Assembly: GCA_019244055.1 (NCBI GenBank)
Contig: JAFATG010000096.1
Coordinates: 1 to 36,813 of the forward strand
Direction: 5' to 3'
Source: Acidobacteriaceae bacterium
GTDB lineage: Bacteria > Acidobacteriota > Terriglobia > Bryobacterales > Bryobacteraceae
Length of the DNA stretch: 36,813 nucleotides
In this document: piece after piece, positions 27,523-34,521 of the stretch
Layout of the letters: each line of letters begins with the position of its first letter
How positions within the stretch are numbered: the stretch's first letter is position 1
Notes under the pieces: generated by a model
What the model was told of the DNA's origin: nothing
The model's input: the letters and a program-made list of their open reading frames with translations, nothing else
The model's database searches: none
Translations under genes and position numbers: made by a program

Positions 27523-27612
27523 CGTAGTGCCCTCCTTGTGATCCCTACCGATATTGCCCAAAAGTGCTCAGACCCGTTAACTATATCCCAACTGGAAGTA
27601 ACTGAGCTTGTT

Positions 27613-27640
27613 GCCCGAAGAGCTCAGTTCTGAGGGCGAT
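27613..27640 (+). repeat. Small hairpin element, copy A
   Basis: The element can fold as CCC-GA-AGAGC-TCA-GTTCT-GA-GGG: a five-pair inner stem with a TCA loop, a GA/GA internal loop and an outer CCC/GGG stem. It lies just upstream of the padR gene. A second copy in the same orientation is at 31681-31708, after the cassette; 23 of 27 aligned bases agree. One difference in the inner stem changes a G-T wobble to a G-C pair, which supports a folded form. Confidence 0.45.
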
Positions 27641-27653
27641 GCCCCACACAAGG

Positions 27654-27659
27654 TATACT
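27654..27659 (+). promoter_or_regulatory. Candidate -10 of the padR operon
   Basis: TATACT lies 14 bp before the padR ATG at 27674. No ribosome site precedes the ATG, so transcription from here would give a nearly leaderless message. A -35 is not clear. PadR repressors usually act on their own promoter, so the operator may overlap this site. Confidence 0.35.
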
Positions 27660-27673
27660 TCCCTTATTCATTT

Positions 27674-28024
27674 ATGGGAAGGAAAGCCCTCGATAAATCG
27701 CGTTCCGGTGATCTCATTCCCGGCACTCTGGACCTGCTCATTTTGAAAGCGCTCGAATCCGGCCCGCTCCATGGTTATGCCGTTGCTGAATGGATTCACG
27801 GGCGTTCGCACGATGTGCTTCAGATCGATGAGGGCGCCCTCTACCCTGCTCTCCATCGGCTTGAGCTTCGTGGCCTTCTTTCTGCCGAATGGGGTGCTTC
27901 AGAAAACAATCGGCGCGCCAAGTTTTACCGGCTTACGGGCCCTGGCCGCAAACACCTTCTATCCGAGCGCGAACGTTGGACACGTCTCGCCGCCGCGGTC
28001 GGGTTCGTCCTGGCGGGAACTTAA
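27674..28024 (+). CDS. PadR family transcriptional regulator
   Basis: The 116-aa protein is a winged-helix regulator. LIPGTLDLLILKALESGPLH (about 14-33), GYAVAEWIHGRSHDVLQIDE and GALYPALHRLELRGLLSAEW are the standard PadR core, with the recognition helix around ALYPALHRLE. The C-terminus is short (AKFYRLTGPGRKHLLSERER), the form found next to ADOP permeases. It is 3 nt upstream of the permease gene and therefore likely controls it. The ATG at 27674 is used; the open frame reaches further upstream, into the hairpin element, without family resemblance. It should repress its own operon until a ligand or stress releases it. Confidence 0.92.
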   Translation: MGRKALDKSRSGDLIPGTLDLLILKALESGPLHGYAVAEWIHGRSHDVLQIDEGALYPALHRLELRGLLSAEWGASENNRRAKFYRLTGPGRKHLLSERERWTRLAAAVGFVLAGT

Positions 28025-28027
28025 GGA

Positions 28028-30726
28028 ATGAGAGAAATGTGGCAGAGCATGCGCGAATTTATTCTGCGAGCGGCGGGGGTATTCAGAAAACGGCGACGTG
28101 AGCGCGAACTCGCCGAAGAACTCGAATTTCATCTGGCTCTTAAAGAAACCAGTTGCCGCCAAAATGGCCTTCCTCCTTCGGACGCAAGCTATCAAGCTCG
28201 TCGAAATTTCGGCGGGTTGGAGCGCTGGAAGGAATGGTGCCGCGATGTGTCCACAATTCCGGTTTTGGAAGATCTGCAACGGGATCTGTGGCTGGCATTT
28301 CGCACGCTGCGCAAGTCGCCAACCTTCACCTGCATAGCTGTCGCTACATTGACAGCCGCAATCGGCGCAAATACAACGATATTCAGCCTACTAAACGCAG
28401 TGCTTCTCAAATCGGTCAACGTTCCTCGCGCAGATCGTCTGATTTTGCTTCGCGTCCAGCCCGGCGATTATGGATATGGCTTCAACTACCCTTGGTTCAG
28501 GCGTATTGAACAAGACTCATCGAGCCTGATGCAGGTATTTGGCTTCATTCGCCGACATCTACGTTTGACAACTCTTAGCGGCATTGAAGACGTTTCGGCG
28601 CAGCTTGTCAGTGGAGGCTACTTTCCCGCACTGCAAGTAGCCCCCGAGATGGGACGCTACATAGTTGCTCGTGACGATCGACCAGGCATACCGGACGGCG
28701 GGTGGCTGTTATCAGCGCAGGATTCTGGCGTTCGCACTTTGCCGCAGACCCCAAAATACTCGGGCGCCAGTTAAAGCTCAATCAGATCGCCTTCACTATC
28801 GTCGGCGTGATGCCTGATTCGTTTAGGGGAATGGATCACGACGAGCATCCCGATGTGTTCATACCTCTTGAATCCGAGCCGTTGGTTGATGCACCATTCA
28901 ACGCCATCGCCGCTGGATATCGGGTCTGGTGGATGTGGATTGGTGCCCGCCTTAAGGAAGGTATTTCCCTTGAACAGGCGGCGGCATTCCTGAAGGCGAA
29001 ATCTTTCAGCTTGACTCACGGCAAGGAAACGCCACTCACCTTTAAGCTCAATGGCTATAAGCTTGAGGATCTTTACGTAACCGCTGAGTCTGGCTTGGCT
29101 GGTTATTCCGCCGTTCGGTTTCGGTTTGCAAAACCCCTGCGAGTGTTGATGGGCCTAGTAGGTTTGGTCTTATTGCTGGCATGCCTCAACCTCGCCACGC
29201 TCCTCATGGCGCGGGCGAGCGCACGTCGCCGCGAAATTTCAACGCGCTTTGCCCTGGGAGCTAGCCGCTCTCGTCTCGTCCGGCAACTTCTTACTGAATG
29301 CCTATTGCTTTCGCTCGTCGGAACCATACTCGGTTTACTGGCCGCATTACTGCTTACTCGCGCACTTGCCCTCCTAATCGCTCCGCAACACGGGATTAGG
29401 AGTGTGCACATCGACAGTGCGCCTGACTTCGTCGTATTTGCTTTTACTGCTGCCGTTGCCCTGGCTGCGACTCTTCTGACAGGAGTGGCCCCGGCGCTAC
29501 GCTCGACCGACCGCCGGTTAGAAAACCTGCGGGAAGCCAGCTTCAGCCTTCGAGCAGTAGAGCGCAGCCGATTCTGGCCGCGTGCGCTACTTGCGTTGGA
29601 AGTAGCCGTGGCCCTCGTGCTAGTGACCGGAGCCAGTCTGCTCGGCTACAGCCTTGTCAAACTACACCAGCTTCCGCTTGGCTTCGATCCAGCTGGCTTG
29701 GTTCATGTCTTCATGGACACCGATCACAGCAGGATTCGCGCGGCATCGCCCGAAATCTATCGCCAACTGACGGAACGTCTCAAACGTTTGCCCTCAGTCT
29801 CCGATGTAAGCATCTGCCAATATGTGCCATTTTCGAGCGCTATCGGGATGACCGAGATAACGGTCCCAGCGAGGGGCCACGAACCGCTTTGGCAAAATTC
29901 CATCGGACCCGGATATTTCAGCACAATGCGCACTTCCCTACGTGAAGGACGCGAGTTTCGTTGGTCTGACAGCGGCGCCAGGGCTAACGTAGTCATTCTG
30001 AACGCCTCGGCTGAAAAGACGCTTTTCCCCGGCGAGCACGCCTTGGGTCAGCACGTTAGCGACGACAGAGGAAAGACCTGGCGCGAAATCGTGGGTGTTG
30101 TCGAGGACGCGAAGTATTCTTCCGTGCGCGCCGCGTCACCACCAACCATTTACTATCCTGCGACGCTGGAACTGGAAAATGGAGTCTCTTCGTGGACGTT
30201 TATGCTGCGGGTCTCAGGTCCGGTGGGTCCGGTCATTTCCTCAGCCAGCAAGGTCATTCATCAGGACGTACCGCAACTTCCAGCGCCCGTCGCGATAAGC
30301 ATGGAAGAGACTGTGAATGACTCGCTGGCTTCAGAGCGTATACTAGCCATGCTCGCCGCCTTCTTCGGTATATTGGCGCTCCTCATTACGGGTATCGGCC
30401 TCTACGGAACACTGGCTTACATCACGGAGCGGCGCACTGGCGAAATCGGCATCCGCATGGCTGTAGGCGCGCGTCCCAGCAACATCGCATTCCTGGTTGC
30501 GGTCGAAAATGGCGCGCTCGCGTTTTCAGGATGCATTGTGGGCCTGACCGTTTCCTTGATGGCATCGAAGCAGGTCGCAAGTTTCCTGTTTGGGATTACG
30601 CCTCGGGATCCTTTCGCTTTTGGAGCGGCAGTCATTGCGGTGTTGTTAGTCGCAGTTACAGCTTCGGTTTCACCCGCGCTGAGGGCGACACGTATTGATC
30701 CACTATCCGCTATTCGCTATGAATGA
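28028..30726 (+). pseudogene. Frameshifted ADOP (MacB-like) permease
   Basis: The permease is split over two frames. The first, 28028-28774, encodes the elongated N-terminal segment (RKRRRERELAEELEFHLALK), the first membrane helix (FTCIAVATLTAAIGANTTIF) and part of the MacB-like periplasmic domain. The second, which must take over near 28700, starts VAVISAGFWRSHFAADPKIL and continues to 30726 with the rest of the periplasmic region, three helices, a second periplasmic domain and the final FtsX-like helices (AFFGILALLITGIGLYGTLA). One base inserted (or two removed) around GGCGGGTGG restores one protein of about 900 aa. No ATPase partner is adjacent, as usual for ADOPs. It is a real break, or a sequence error. 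Confidence 0.85.
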
Positions 30727-31568
30727 TTGATGGCGGAATTGGCACCGCTTCGGCCCGAATGATTCCTCGTGGGCATATAGCAAACATCATTTCGCTGGGT
30801 TGCATACCGTTGTGTTTGATCGCTTGTGCGGCGCGTTTATCCAGAACGTATTTTGAAGTGCTTCCGAATAGCCCCGATTATCTACTGCAATCTCCTGATT
30901 CTCGTCGGACGCCCTTTCCCGAAGTGCTCAAAGCCTACAACGGCTTTGAAGCCGGACACGCGTGGGTAGATCTCGAACCATTGATGGAACTGAGAATTGA
31001 GAACGCCTATTACGAGCCCGGCGGTCCAAGAACCGGTCTGGCAGGCTTCTTGGGGACTGAAGTCGCACGCTACCTTGTCGCGTCGCATGGCCTGCATCTA
31101 CTTTCCGTTCAACCCATGGCGAATCGTCCGAACGATCAGATCCCAGTTCAAGATCTAATTTCACATTCGGAAACAAAATTCAGCCATTACCGGCTGTACT
31201 ACGAGGTAGTTTTTGCTCGACGTCACAATTCACACGGGTCAGTTCTATTGGGCGCGGACTCTCAAGCAGAAATGGATGCGCTGTCGGCGCAGTTGGCACA
31301 TCCAGAGGAAGTCTGTTCTCAACGATCGACTCATTGCATCATTTTCCCGGAGGCTTGTTCCGTGTCGGTGGAGATGCAAGTCATTGTTAACAGCAAACCG
31401 GAATCGGTCCTTTGGGGAGTTACGCTAGAGAGTATCGCCAAGCAGCCGCGTCATCTGGAGATGAAGCGCTTGTACGCAGGGGAGCTAAGGCCGGTTCGAA
31501 TCGATGCGAACGACCCCAAGTCTCTGCTGCTTCCGCTGCTGCCCGGAGATCGAATCACTTGGAACTAG
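30723..31568 (+). CDS. Lipoprotein of unknown function, coupled to ADOP
   Basis: The start ATG overlaps the permease stop by 4 nt (ATGA), so translation is coupled; an alternative ATG at 30759 gives a cleaner signal peptide. The sequence IPLCLIACAARLSRTY has a lipobox (LIAC, C35 in the longer form), so the 281-aa protein is probably membrane-anchored and exported. The rest has no recognised domain: it has a mixed alpha/beta look, with EAGHAWVDLEPLMELRIENA, HYRLYYEVVFARRHNSHGSV, a cysteine pair in CSQRSTHC and a C-terminal LLLPLLPGDRITWN. It lies downstream of the permease, suggesting it works at the same membrane site. The function is unknown. Confidence 0.65.
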   Translation: MIDGGIGTASARMIPRGHIANIISLGCIPLCLIACAARLSRTYFEVLPNSPDYLLQSPDSRRTPFPEVLKAYNGFEAGHAWVDLEPLMELRIENAYYEPGGPRTGLAGFLGTEVARYLVASHGLHLLSVQPMANRPNDQIPVQDLISHSETKFSHYRLYYEVVFARRHNSHGSVLLGADSQAEMDALSAQLAHPEEVCSQRSTHCIIFPEACSVSVEMQVIVNSKPESVLWGVTLESIAKQPRHLEMKRLYAGELRPVRIDANDPKSLLLPLLPGDRITWN

Positions 31569-31765: not shown

Positions 31766-34294
31766 CTACTCAGTCCGTAACGCCCGAGCGGGATCGATCG
31801 AGGCGGCGCGTCGCGCGGGAATGGCCCCCGCGAGGGAGGCAGCGATCGACAAAGTGAGAATCGCCGTCACCAGGACCCCAATATTCACACCCTTCATGTC
31901 GAAGAGCTGTGACTCGATAAAGCGAACACAGAGCACCGATGTGGGAATACCGATGGCCAAGCCCAATACAGTCTGGATCATCGCTCCCCGCATCACCATT
32001 CCGACCACTCCGGTTCGTGCAGCGCCAAGCGCCATCCGAATCCCGATCTCGACCGTCCGCGAAGCTGTCGTGTAAGCGGTCACGCCGTAGAGGCCGATCG
32101 TCGCGAGCAGCAACGCCAGAGCGCCGAACAACGTCGTCAGACGCGCCACCATGCGTTCTTCCGTGAACCGGTCCGCGATCTGCTGATCGAACGTTTGGAA
32201 CTTCACGACGGTCAGATTCGGATTAATCGCTGCAAGCGTTCTCTGCGCAATCCCCGCCATCCCGTTCATGCGTGTCTCCGTTTGTACGACAAGCGCGCCA
32301 GCGTAAAGCGACAGGTCCTTTTCAATTGGCTCCTTGTCACTCGGGTCTCGCTGCAAAATCGAAAGGAAATACATTCGATGTTGCTTCCATCGCACGCTCG
32401 TGTAGGTCGTGTCTTCTACTACACCCACTATCTTGTAATCTCCCGCTGATTCGGGCGATGGACCGAAGTAGCGCCCAATCGGGTTCTGGCCGGGAAAGAA
32501 CTTCTTCGCGAATTCCTGGTTCACGACGGCCACCACTGGCGCGCTCAGAGTATCTCTTTCGCTGATGCCGCGCCCCATCAATACATGAGTACCCACCGAA
32601 TCGAAATATTCGGAATTGACCTTCACGACGGAAGCCCCCGCGTGTGGGTTTGCTTGCCCCTTCACCTGTATTCCGGTACCCCAATTGTTGTCCTCCATCG
32701 GTGTATATATGGTGATGCCGACGTTCTTCACTCCTGGGATCGCGTGGAATCGCTCCTCGATCGTTCGGTACAGCAGCTCGAGTTGCGTCTGCGAATAGCC
32801 CGCCGCTTGCGGATTGATGTGTATGATGTACCGGTCCTTGCTCTCCAATCGTAAATTCGAATGTTGAAGCTTGCTCAGGCTCTGCGTGAACAGTCCCGCT
32901 CCGGTCAACAGAACCAGCGACAGGCCCGCTTGCAGCACCACCAACCCGCGCTGCACGAGTGAAGCTCCTGAACCCGTCGAGCGCATTCCCGTTCGCAATG
33001 CATCCACCGGGTTCGTTCGGGACGTAATCCAGGCAGGAGCAATACCAAAGAGAACACCTGTGAGCAGCGCCAGCCCGCATGCGAACATCAGCACCGCCAG
33101 TGACGGCCGGGCATCAACGGGCAAACGTTGGGCATCGCCGAATGCCAGGCCCAGAAGCATGCTCGTTGCCGCGTAGGAAACGGCGAGTCCCGCGATGCTG
33201 CTGAACAGGGCCAGCAAAACGCTTTCTGTCAGCAACTGCCGGATGAGTTGCCCGCGGTTCGCACCCAGAGCTGTTCGCAGCGAGATCTCCTGCTTACGTG
33301 CCATCCCGCGGGCCAGCAGCAGGTTCGCGACGTTCGCACACGCGATCAGGAGCACCAAGCCTGAGATCGCCATGAGAACGCGCAGGTTCGACCCGTACTG
33401 TTCCTGCAAGTCCTGAATTCCGGCGCCCCCGGGCGAGAGGACCACATGTGTTTTCGCCAGTAGCTTCTTGCCTTCGCCCTTCGAAAAAGTTTTCGTCTCC
33501 GCAAAAGATTGCCGGACCAATGCGCTCAGCTTCTGTTGCAAAGGCTTCAATGGCGTGCCCGGCTTCACCCGCCCAACCAGATAGAGCCATCGCACGTCCG
33601 CATCGTGTACGTAAGCCGTCCCCGCTAACGCCTCCATCGACTCGATCGGCAAAAAGAAATCCGGAGGAGTGGTCGACAACCGATCGCCGTAGAATCCGGC
33701 CGGAGCGACACCAACAATGGTCACCGGTTTTGTGTTGATCCAAAACGTGCTCCCGATGATGGAGGGATCCCCCGCATAGTCGCGCTGCCACATCGCATAG
33801 CTCATTACCCCCATGACGGCCGCGCCTTCAACATCGTCGCCATCCCTCAGCAGTCGCCCTGCCTGCGGCCGGAGCCCAAACGTGCGGAAGTAATTGCCGG
33901 AAACGAACTCACCCATTACGGAACGTGCGTCCGCGTGTCCTCGTTCGCGCCGTGCAGTGACAGGTTGGTACGAAAAGCCGGCCTGCATTGCCGCTAGTTC
34001 CTGGAACTCTGGCGTGTCTTTCTTCAAGAGCCGCCACGTTTCGTTCGAAAATAAACTGTAATTGCCCTTGTCGTTCGTGCCGCTATTCACGCAGCATTCC
34101 AATGAGTCTCCAATCCGCAACAACGTTTTCGGATCGGCTACAGGCAGGTTCTTCAGTAACAGCGCGTGAATCAGCGTGAAGATAGAGGCGTTAGCTCCGA
34201 TTCCCAATGCTAGTGTCAGTATGGCCGTGGTCGTAAAACCAGGCGCCTTTCGAAGCTGGCGTATCCCATAGCGAATGTCCTGCATCCAGGTCAT
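31766..34294 (-). CDS. ADOP (MacB-like) permease, intact
   Basis: The intact protein of 842 aa has the duplicated architecture of ADOP permeases. The N-terminal part is MTWMQDIRYGIRQLRKAPGF then helix TTAILTLALGIGANASIFTL. A MacB-like periplasmic domain with VTIVGVAPAGFYGD and three helices (VLMAISGLVLLIACANVANL, with LLLARGMARKQEISLRTALG) follow. A second unit starts with LVVLQAGLSLVLLTGAGLF and a periplasmic domain with DYKIVGVVEDTTYTSVRW. The C-terminus has FGALALLLATIGLYGVTAYT and the final RRAASIDPARALRTE. It starts at ATG 34294 with AGGAG 11 nt upstream. It lacks the elongated N-terminus of the first ADOP and has no PadR neighbour. The cargo is unknown; such proteins may export toxic compounds or peptides. 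Confidence 0.9.
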   Translation of the reverse strand: MTWMQDIRYGIRQLRKAPGFTTTAILTLALGIGANASIFTLIHALLLKNLPVADPKTLLRIGDSLECCVNSGTNDKGNYSLFSNETWRLLKKDTPEFQELAAMQAGFSYQPVTARRERGHADARSVMGEFVSGNYFRTFGLRPQAGRLLRDGDDVEGAAVMGVMSYAMWQRDYAGDPSIIGSTFWINTKPVTIVGVAPAGFYGDRLSTTPPDFFLPIESMEALAGTAYVHDADVRWLYLVGRVKPGTPLKPLQQKLSALVRQSFAETKTFSKGEGKKLLAKTHVVLSPGGAGIQDLQEQYGSNLRVLMAISGLVLLIACANVANLLLARGMARKQEISLRTALGANRGQLIRQLLTESVLLALFSSIAGLAVSYAATSMLLGLAFGDAQRLPVDARPSLAVLMFACGLALLTGVLFGIAPAWITSRTNPVDALRTGMRSTGSGASLVQRGLVVLQAGLSLVLLTGAGLFTQSLSKLQHSNLRLESKDRYIIHINPQAAGYSQTQLELLYRTIEERFHAIPGVKNVGITIYTPMEDNNWGTGIQVKGQANPHAGASVVKVNSEYFDSVGTHVLMGRGISERDTLSAPVVAVVNQEFAKKFFPGQNPIGRYFGPSPESAGDYKIVGVVEDTTYTSVRWKQHRMYFLSILQRDPSDKEPIEKDLSLYAGALVVQTETRMNGMAGIAQRTLAAINPNLTVVKFQTFDQQIADRFTEERMVARLTTLFGALALLLATIGLYGVTAYTTASRTVEIGIRMALGAARTGVVGMVMRGAMIQTVLGLAIGIPTSVLCVRFIESQLFDMKGVNIGVLVTAILTLSIAASLAGAIPARRAASIDPARALRTE

Positions 34295-34521
34295 CTCAGT
34301 AAGTTCTCCTGCTAGCAATTCAAGCTGTTAACCGATCACGGACGGAGAGAGTAGTGCAACTGAATGCCCGAACCGGAACTTCTCTACATTGTTTATCTAC
34401 TATTATTTGGGCAGAACGATGACGGGCCGCCTGTTCTCTCTTGGTTCACCGCGTCGCAAAAGCGGAAAAGCGGCCTGGGTCGAGTAAGCTAGCAGCGAGC
34501 CCGGTTGCGAGGATTTAGAGG
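34295..34521. other. Intergenic region between divergent genes
   Basis: This region separates the second ADOP gene (-) from the PPOX gene (+). It contains an AT-rich part at about 34380-34410, with GTAGATAAACAATGTAGAG on the minus strand, a short direct repeat of GTAGA. I see no gene and no clear -35/-10 pair. Confidence 0.3.

Follow-up and report, generated by a model that had tools for sequence, protein, structure and literature searches.

Conserved Acidobacteriota lipoproteins that recur behind ADOP permease and BlaR1-type protease genes

In a 36,813-nucleotide stretch of DNA from an Acidobacteriaceae bacterium (contig JAFATG010000096.1 of assembly GCA_019244055.1, referred to here as the window), the start codon of a putative lipoprotein gene overlaps the stop codon of a gene for an orphan permease of the ADOP type. 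An earlier note, made from the sequence alone, took the protein to be a membrane-anchored partner of that permease, translationally coupled to it. Does the lipoprotein belong to ADOP permeases, and what do the neighbours of its relatives say about its role? Phrase and word searches of one literature library returned no paper on ADOP function or on the lipoprotein, and the main text of the Solibacter genome paper mentions no PadR, BlaR, M56 or lipoprotein (PMC3174227).

The lipoprotein gene, its family and its predicted fold

The open reading frame, its ATGA overlap with the permease stop and a LIAC lipobox are all present in the sequence as the earlier note had described them. The features of the gene, in window coordinates, are as follows:

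30723–31568, + strand: lipoprotein open reading frame (LIPO), 281 codons for 281 amino acids
30759–30761, + strand: in-frame ATG matching the start of the L002 lipoprotein; the likelier ancestral start, itself within an ATGA
30816–30827, + strand: LIAC lipobox, residues 32–35, with its Cys as the putative lipidation site
31314–31337, + strand: Cys198 and Cys205, conserved; they could form a disulphide
31359–31565, + strand: C-terminal domain, residues 213–281, predicted to be a beta-grasp

The ATG at 30723 forms an ATGA with the stop codon of the ADOP fragment ahead of it, a stop-start overlap that is the basis for suggesting translational coupling to the ADOP. This start gives the protein 12 residues more than its nearest relative, the lipoprotein of locus L002 from an uncultured Bryobacterales metagenome-assembled genome (66% identical over 270 amino acids), whose start is homologous to the ATG at 30759. 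Comparison of the two genes gives dN 0.22 and dS 1.19, values which indicate that the lipoprotein gene is under purifying selection. The short frame is therefore conserved, as the earlier note needed it to be, and so is its lipobox Cys, which is invariant among nine close relatives. In a wider alignment of 60 relatives, 55 rows have the Cys at the lipobox position and the other five have gaps left by row trimming. A strict leader-plus-lipobox pattern matches 51 of the 60 rows; one of the nine that it misses is the row of the window protein, which was trimmed at residue 14. Cys198 is kept in 59 rows and Cys205 in all 60. By its leader and lipobox the window protein classes as a bacterial lipoprotein, which would carry its lipid at the lipobox Cys and reside at a membrane, in agreement with the anchoring proposed earlier.

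The protein belongs to an unnamed, conserved family of Acidobacteriota cell-envelope lipoproteins. With one sequence as query, relatives turned up in 29 of 299 genomes of the class, and profile searches found them in at least 64 of 237 genomes of the taxonomic family, at least 60 of 399 of the class and at least 6 of 297 of the phylum, few candidates being scored in each genome; with either the lipoprotein query or a profile there was mostly one match per genome. No relative was found in the viral contigs searched. The 71 loci collected fall into two sizes, 27 short (about 270 amino acids) and 44 long (about 400 amino acids). The long branch has additional sequence ahead of the part common to both, and the two branches have the Cys pair and the C-terminal domain in common. 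The alignment (A5) retained 60 of 71 candidate rows after 11 fragments or near-copies were left out (L043, L052, L095, L097 twice, L099, L100, L102 twice, L184 and L189). Two further loci scored too low to be candidates (L101, L190), and L083 and L085 were left out as repeats of L002 and L003.

Some members are divergent. In the window's own genome, sequence search finds one copy and the profile adds a second, shorter and divergent one (L197, positions 6346–7077 of contig C4), some 2 kb downstream of another PadR-ADOP pair. Its match to the family profile stops at position 302 of 375, so it probably lacks the beta-grasp end. Outside the class, two Acidobacteriota encode relatives with no evident lipoprotein leader at L198 (5381–8052, in tandem) and L199 (5638–6888), adjoined by open reading frames of 1260 and 1183 amino acids, respectively. 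A Pfam scan of the 1260-residue product gave nothing at E ≤ 0.01.

Pfam, NCBIfam and PDB sequence searches gave no significant match. Neither Pfam nor NCBIfam matched the window lipoprotein at E ≤ 1, and a PDB search with its single sequence gave nothing at E ≤ 10; a PDB search with the 60-row profile returned one match, at E 2.3. A Pfam scan of 60 members touched 15 families, each matched by one member only, with a best E of 0.012.

The fold, which the earlier note did not recognise, was approached by structure prediction. An AlphaFold model of the full-length protein from three sequences had a mean pLDDT of 38.9, with 60–71 over the C-terminal 65 or so residues. Modelled alone, the C-terminal 89 residues reached a mean pLDDT of 77 in the best model (76–89 from model residue 21 onward); of the five models, two did poorly, with means of 48 and 42. 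The strands and helix follow the beta-grasp order. Foldseek found nothing in the PDB at E ≤ 0.001, and its list for this model is dominated by beta-grasp domains. In VIA-align a multi-ubiquitin protein scored Z 5.9, Wza and WzaB 5.6 and MoaD- and ThiS-type proteins 5.4–5.5, all in the range of 5–6 that unrelated folds also reach. The C-terminal domain is thus predicted to be a beta-grasp, a common fold that singles out no one family, and the N-terminal part gained no assignment.

The SLBB/OPX proteins, such as Wza, are one group of envelope lipoproteins with which the family can be compared, since they too have a beta-grasp domain, which for the C-terminus here is a prediction. Wza (2w8i) aligns with the C-terminal model over 76 residues (Z 5.6, rmsd 3.8), and the family profile scored a probability of 37% (P 3.5e-4) in hhalign against 20 SLBB domains, compared with 0.2–0.3% for three control families. 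However, none of the 60 members matches PF10531 at E ≤ 1, ThiS, MoaD and complex I domains score equally well against the lipoprotein model, and the partly annotated neighbour lists contain no polysaccharide export gene adjoining the lipoprotein. SLBB membership was rejected for want of a PF10531 profile match.

Neighbouring genes across the family

Open reading frames at the 71 loci were tagged with profiles for the lipoprotein, ADOP, PadR, M56, BlaI and DUF3738, and genes within 700 nt were counted. Upstream counts cover 67 loci, four with less than 700 nt upstream being left out (L043, L095, L102 and L193). M56 calls had a counting floor of 100 bits, which dropped several matches of 24–69 bits near TonB-receptor-like open reading frames.

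A same-strand ADOP lies within 700 nt upstream at 14 of 67 loci (13 of 66 without the window) and in 9 of 35 genera. The 14 are the window, L002, L033, L034, L036, L039, L046, L047, L094, L096, L097, L166, L176 and L190; at L165 the upstream ADOP is more than 700 nt from the profile start, so that locus is outside the 14 and is labelled ADOP in the tree. Stop-start overlaps with the ADOP occur in the window, L002, L033, L034 (ATGA), L094 (8 nt) and L166. Partner ADOPs of L033, L034, L002, L039 and L166 pass TIGR03434, and that of L096, cut by a contig end, falls below it. At four of the 71 loci a same-strand ADOP lies downstream (L033, L087, L102, L181). Two of these, L087 and L102 in genome G446, have the order PadR-lipoprotein-ADOP instead of PadR-ADOP-lipoprotein, and the L102 copy is frame-broken.

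The second recurring neighbour is a same-strand pair of BlaI and an M56 protein of the BlaR1 type, found upstream at 9 of 67 loci in 5 genera (L041, L042, L168, L170, L171, L173, L179, L185 and L187). At two more loci (L035, L086) the lipoprotein gene is divergent to BlaI-M56. PF05569 confirms seven M56 neighbours (G194, G346, G296, G063 twice, G127 and G149), and the calls at L168, L170, L173 and L179 come from the in-house profile only. In four genomes of one genus (L170, L171, L173, L179) the BlaI, M56 and lipoprotein genes overlap or are tightly spaced. A BlaI gene also stands directly 3′ of the lipoprotein at L002, L033, L036, L046 and L097, all of them ADOP operons, with each of the five BlaI products scoring above the cut-off of Pfam PF03965. 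The window locus has no BlaI or M56 adjoining its lipoprotein; a BlaI remnant behind the gene was considered and rejected, the sole tblastn match being 15 amino acids that fall within the end of the lipoprotein coding sequence, in its frame. A third recurring context occurs in the window's genus (L091, L092), where the lipoprotein is followed by a protein of about 217 amino acids with a leader and an oxidoreductase-like protein of about 525.

Both links far exceed chance. ADOP background was assumed to be 1.8%, on the basis that the window's genome has an estimated 5,400 or so genes, of which no more than 196 came up as first-look ADOP candidates; M56 background was assumed to be 0.1%, M56 being rare (3–10 per genome in eight genomes). 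Binomial values are 1.7e-10 for ADOP at 13 of 66 loci without the window, 1.8e-6 for ADOP at 9 of 35 genera and 7e-9 for M56 at 5 of 35 genera, all of them rough, given that related loci are not independent and that the ADOP counts are lower bounds in most genomes.

The partnership with ADOP proposed in the earlier note is therefore non-random, but it is not exclusive. That note had held that homologues lying mostly away from ADOP genes would count against it, and formally this is the case: 53 of 67 have no same-strand ADOP directly upstream, and nine follow BlaI-M56 instead. An ADOP-only partner was rejected, since most relatives have no adjoining ADOP. The short branch has an ADOP upstream at 8 of 25 loci and a same-strand M56 at none of 25, and the long branch has an ADOP at 6 of 42 and an M56 at 9 of 42. 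At 42 of the 71 loci, ADOP, PadR, BlaI and M56 are all absent within 700 nt on either side, so the lipoprotein can function without such neighbours or has its partners elsewhere.

The partners have alternated repeatedly. With five context labels, the lipoprotein tree requires no fewer than 20 changes. The ADOP-upstream label alone requires at least 10 on the 60-row tree, where it is weakly clustered (44 of 500 shuffles were as low). One example is L042, an M56 locus that is sister to the ADOP loci L039, L046 and L047 on a starred branch. Some pairings have nevertheless persisted. The ADOPs of L033, L034, L036, L097, L039 and L046 are 46–76% identical to one another, and the L047 ADOP piece is 34–39% identical to them; the lipoproteins of those six loci come from both branches and from two taxonomic families (f1, f6), which argues that this pairing is old. 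L002, L094 and L096 form a second ADOP group at 45–52%.

These loci resemble PadR-ADOP units (TIGR03433/TIGR03434) in that the same pair stands upstream in the window and at several related loci. They differ in having a third gene, for the lipoprotein, and sometimes a fourth, for BlaI, which according to the scans lie outside the family definitions. In eight genomes the number of ADOP matches per genome ranges from 32 to 46 or more (at least 46–47 in seven of the eight). ADOPs thus far outnumber lipoprotein copies, and most of them cannot have a lipoprotein. The likeness to BlaI-BlaR1 units (PF03965/PF05569) lies in the pair upstream at nine loci or divergent at two, whose tested members pass the Pfam cut-offs. 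Unlike the products of such units, the lipoprotein is no beta-lactamase or penicillin-binding protein by Pfam scan, and BlaI also occurs in ADOP operons with no adjoining M56 gene. Judged by adjacency across the family, the lipoprotein gene would count as an accessory gene of BlaI-BlaR1 units.

The permease in the window

Upstream of the lipoprotein, the window encodes a PadR-ADOP pair whose permease frame is broken:

27608–28024, + strand: PadR-type repressor (TIGR03433 padR_acidobact, 135.3 bits, cut-off 101.8)
28028–28774, + strand: ADOP first fragment, with the permease prefix and the start of the first core domain (TIGR03434, 112 bits)
28702–30726, + strand: ADOP second fragment, in another frame (TIGR03434, 609 bits, cut-off 622.3)
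30721–30728, + strand: first copy of the 8-bp repeat GAATGATT, covering both the stop of the present ADOP and the ATG at 30723
30757–30764, + strand: second copy of GAATGATT
30727–30762, + strand: candidate remnant of an earlier ADOP end, 36 nt, reading LMAELAPLRPE-stop in the ADOP frame

The two TIGR03434 scores are for the separate, unjoined fragments. The frame break near 28690–28705 is either real or was introduced in assembling this draft genome, and the ADOP may be inactive or mis-assembled. A second, intact ADOP (31766–34318, − strand, 837 bits) converges on the lipoprotein gene and is about 32% identical to the other window ADOP.

The broken ADOP is probably not the ancestral partner of the lipoprotein. 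It is 25–32% identical to 12 other partner ADOPs and 29% identical to that of L002, although the window and L002 have the most closely related lipoproteins. The best relative of the window's ADOP is found in genome G346; it is 53–54% identical and a single open frame, accompanied by a PadR 74% identical to that of the window. The stretch examined around this relative contains no lipoprotein, and the lipoprotein of G346 (L086) lies on another contig, divergent to BlaI-M56. The window's ADOP partner thus seems to have been replaced, and the 36-nt remnant with the GAATGATT repeat is a candidate scar of the exchange. The last 15 nt of the remnant match the end of the L002 ADOP at 14 positions, a score that no other of the window's 227 ATGA-anchored 15-mers reaches (the runner-up has 12), and nine other ADOP ends match at 6–10; ADOP ends have a common motif, so this match alone is no proof of exchange.

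What the recurring linkage may mean

Most likely, the lipoprotein acts with its membrane partner in the envelope. The reading we prefer, and in which our confidence is about evenly balanced, is that it is an exported accessory or effector lipoprotein of units made up of a repressor and a membrane protein, whose membrane partners are exchangeable. The protein would be exported, lipid-anchored at its conserved Cys and periplasm-facing, with the conserved Cys pair preceding its C-terminal beta-grasp domain. A unit would comprise a winged-helix repressor (PadR or BlaI), a membrane protein (ADOP or an M56/BlaR1-type protease) and the lipoprotein, sometimes with a further BlaI. The membrane protein and lipoprotein genes are presumably co-transcribed and repressed by PadR or BlaI, and release of the repressor would cause both proteins to be made together. 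The beta-grasp domain may then bind an envelope component or contact the periplasmic part of the ADOP or other membrane partner. As the lipoprotein follows an orphan permease at some loci and a BlaR1-type protease at others, the two kinds of membrane protein may have comparable roles.

An alternative, possible though we doubt it, is that the linkage concerns expression only: an independent envelope lipoprotein would come under regulation through its place behind PadR-ADOP or BlaI-M56, and would neither contact nor work with either membrane protein. The 42 loci with none of these genes nearby fit such an arrangement, as do the frequent changes of partner on the tree and the window itself, where the ADOP is not orthologous to that of L002 and its G346 relative has no lipoprotein behind it. 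It accounts less readily for the ADOP group that stays paired with short and long lipoproteins in two taxonomic families, or for neighbour classes that are limited to ADOP and M56 units under the systematic profiles (ADOP, PadR, BlaI, M56 and DUF3738).

A bolder proposal, which we regard as unlikely, makes PadR-ADOP the counterpart of BlaI-BlaR1. The ADOP would be a receptor relaying an envelope signal to PadR and not a transporter, and the lipoprotein would be a ligand-sensing or output subunit shared by either receptor type. If true, this would explain why an ADOP lacks an ATPase, comes with a repressor and trades places with M56 before the same lipoprotein. Slightly less probable still is the reading of the earlier note, in which the lipoprotein would be a subunit dedicated to the ADOP permease, for substrate binding or in an accessory role. 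In its favour are the gene overlaps or tight spacing at several loci and the old pairing with one ADOP group. However, most relatives have no adjoining ADOP, nine loci follow M56, and ADOP matches so outnumber lipoprotein matches, of which there is mostly one per genome, that the lipoprotein serves few ADOPs at most. Very improbable is a lipoprotein client of the adjacent ADOP, released or placed by a LolCE/MacB-like permease: the ADOP fragments do score against such models (TIGR02212, E 2.6e-6; PRK10535.1, E 2.6e-27), both far below cut-off, but the scans made found no ATPase domain in the ADOP and the majority of lipoprotein copies are away from one.

The alternation of this small lipoprotein family between ADOPs and BlaR1-type proteases provides a concrete, testable link to ADOP function. 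Either one envelope response is common to both membrane proteins or the lipoprotein hitch-hikes on regulated operons, and each outcome narrows the role of ADOPs. A lipoprotein repeatedly found behind an ADOP or BlaR1-type gene is thereby a handle on the function of those membrane proteins.
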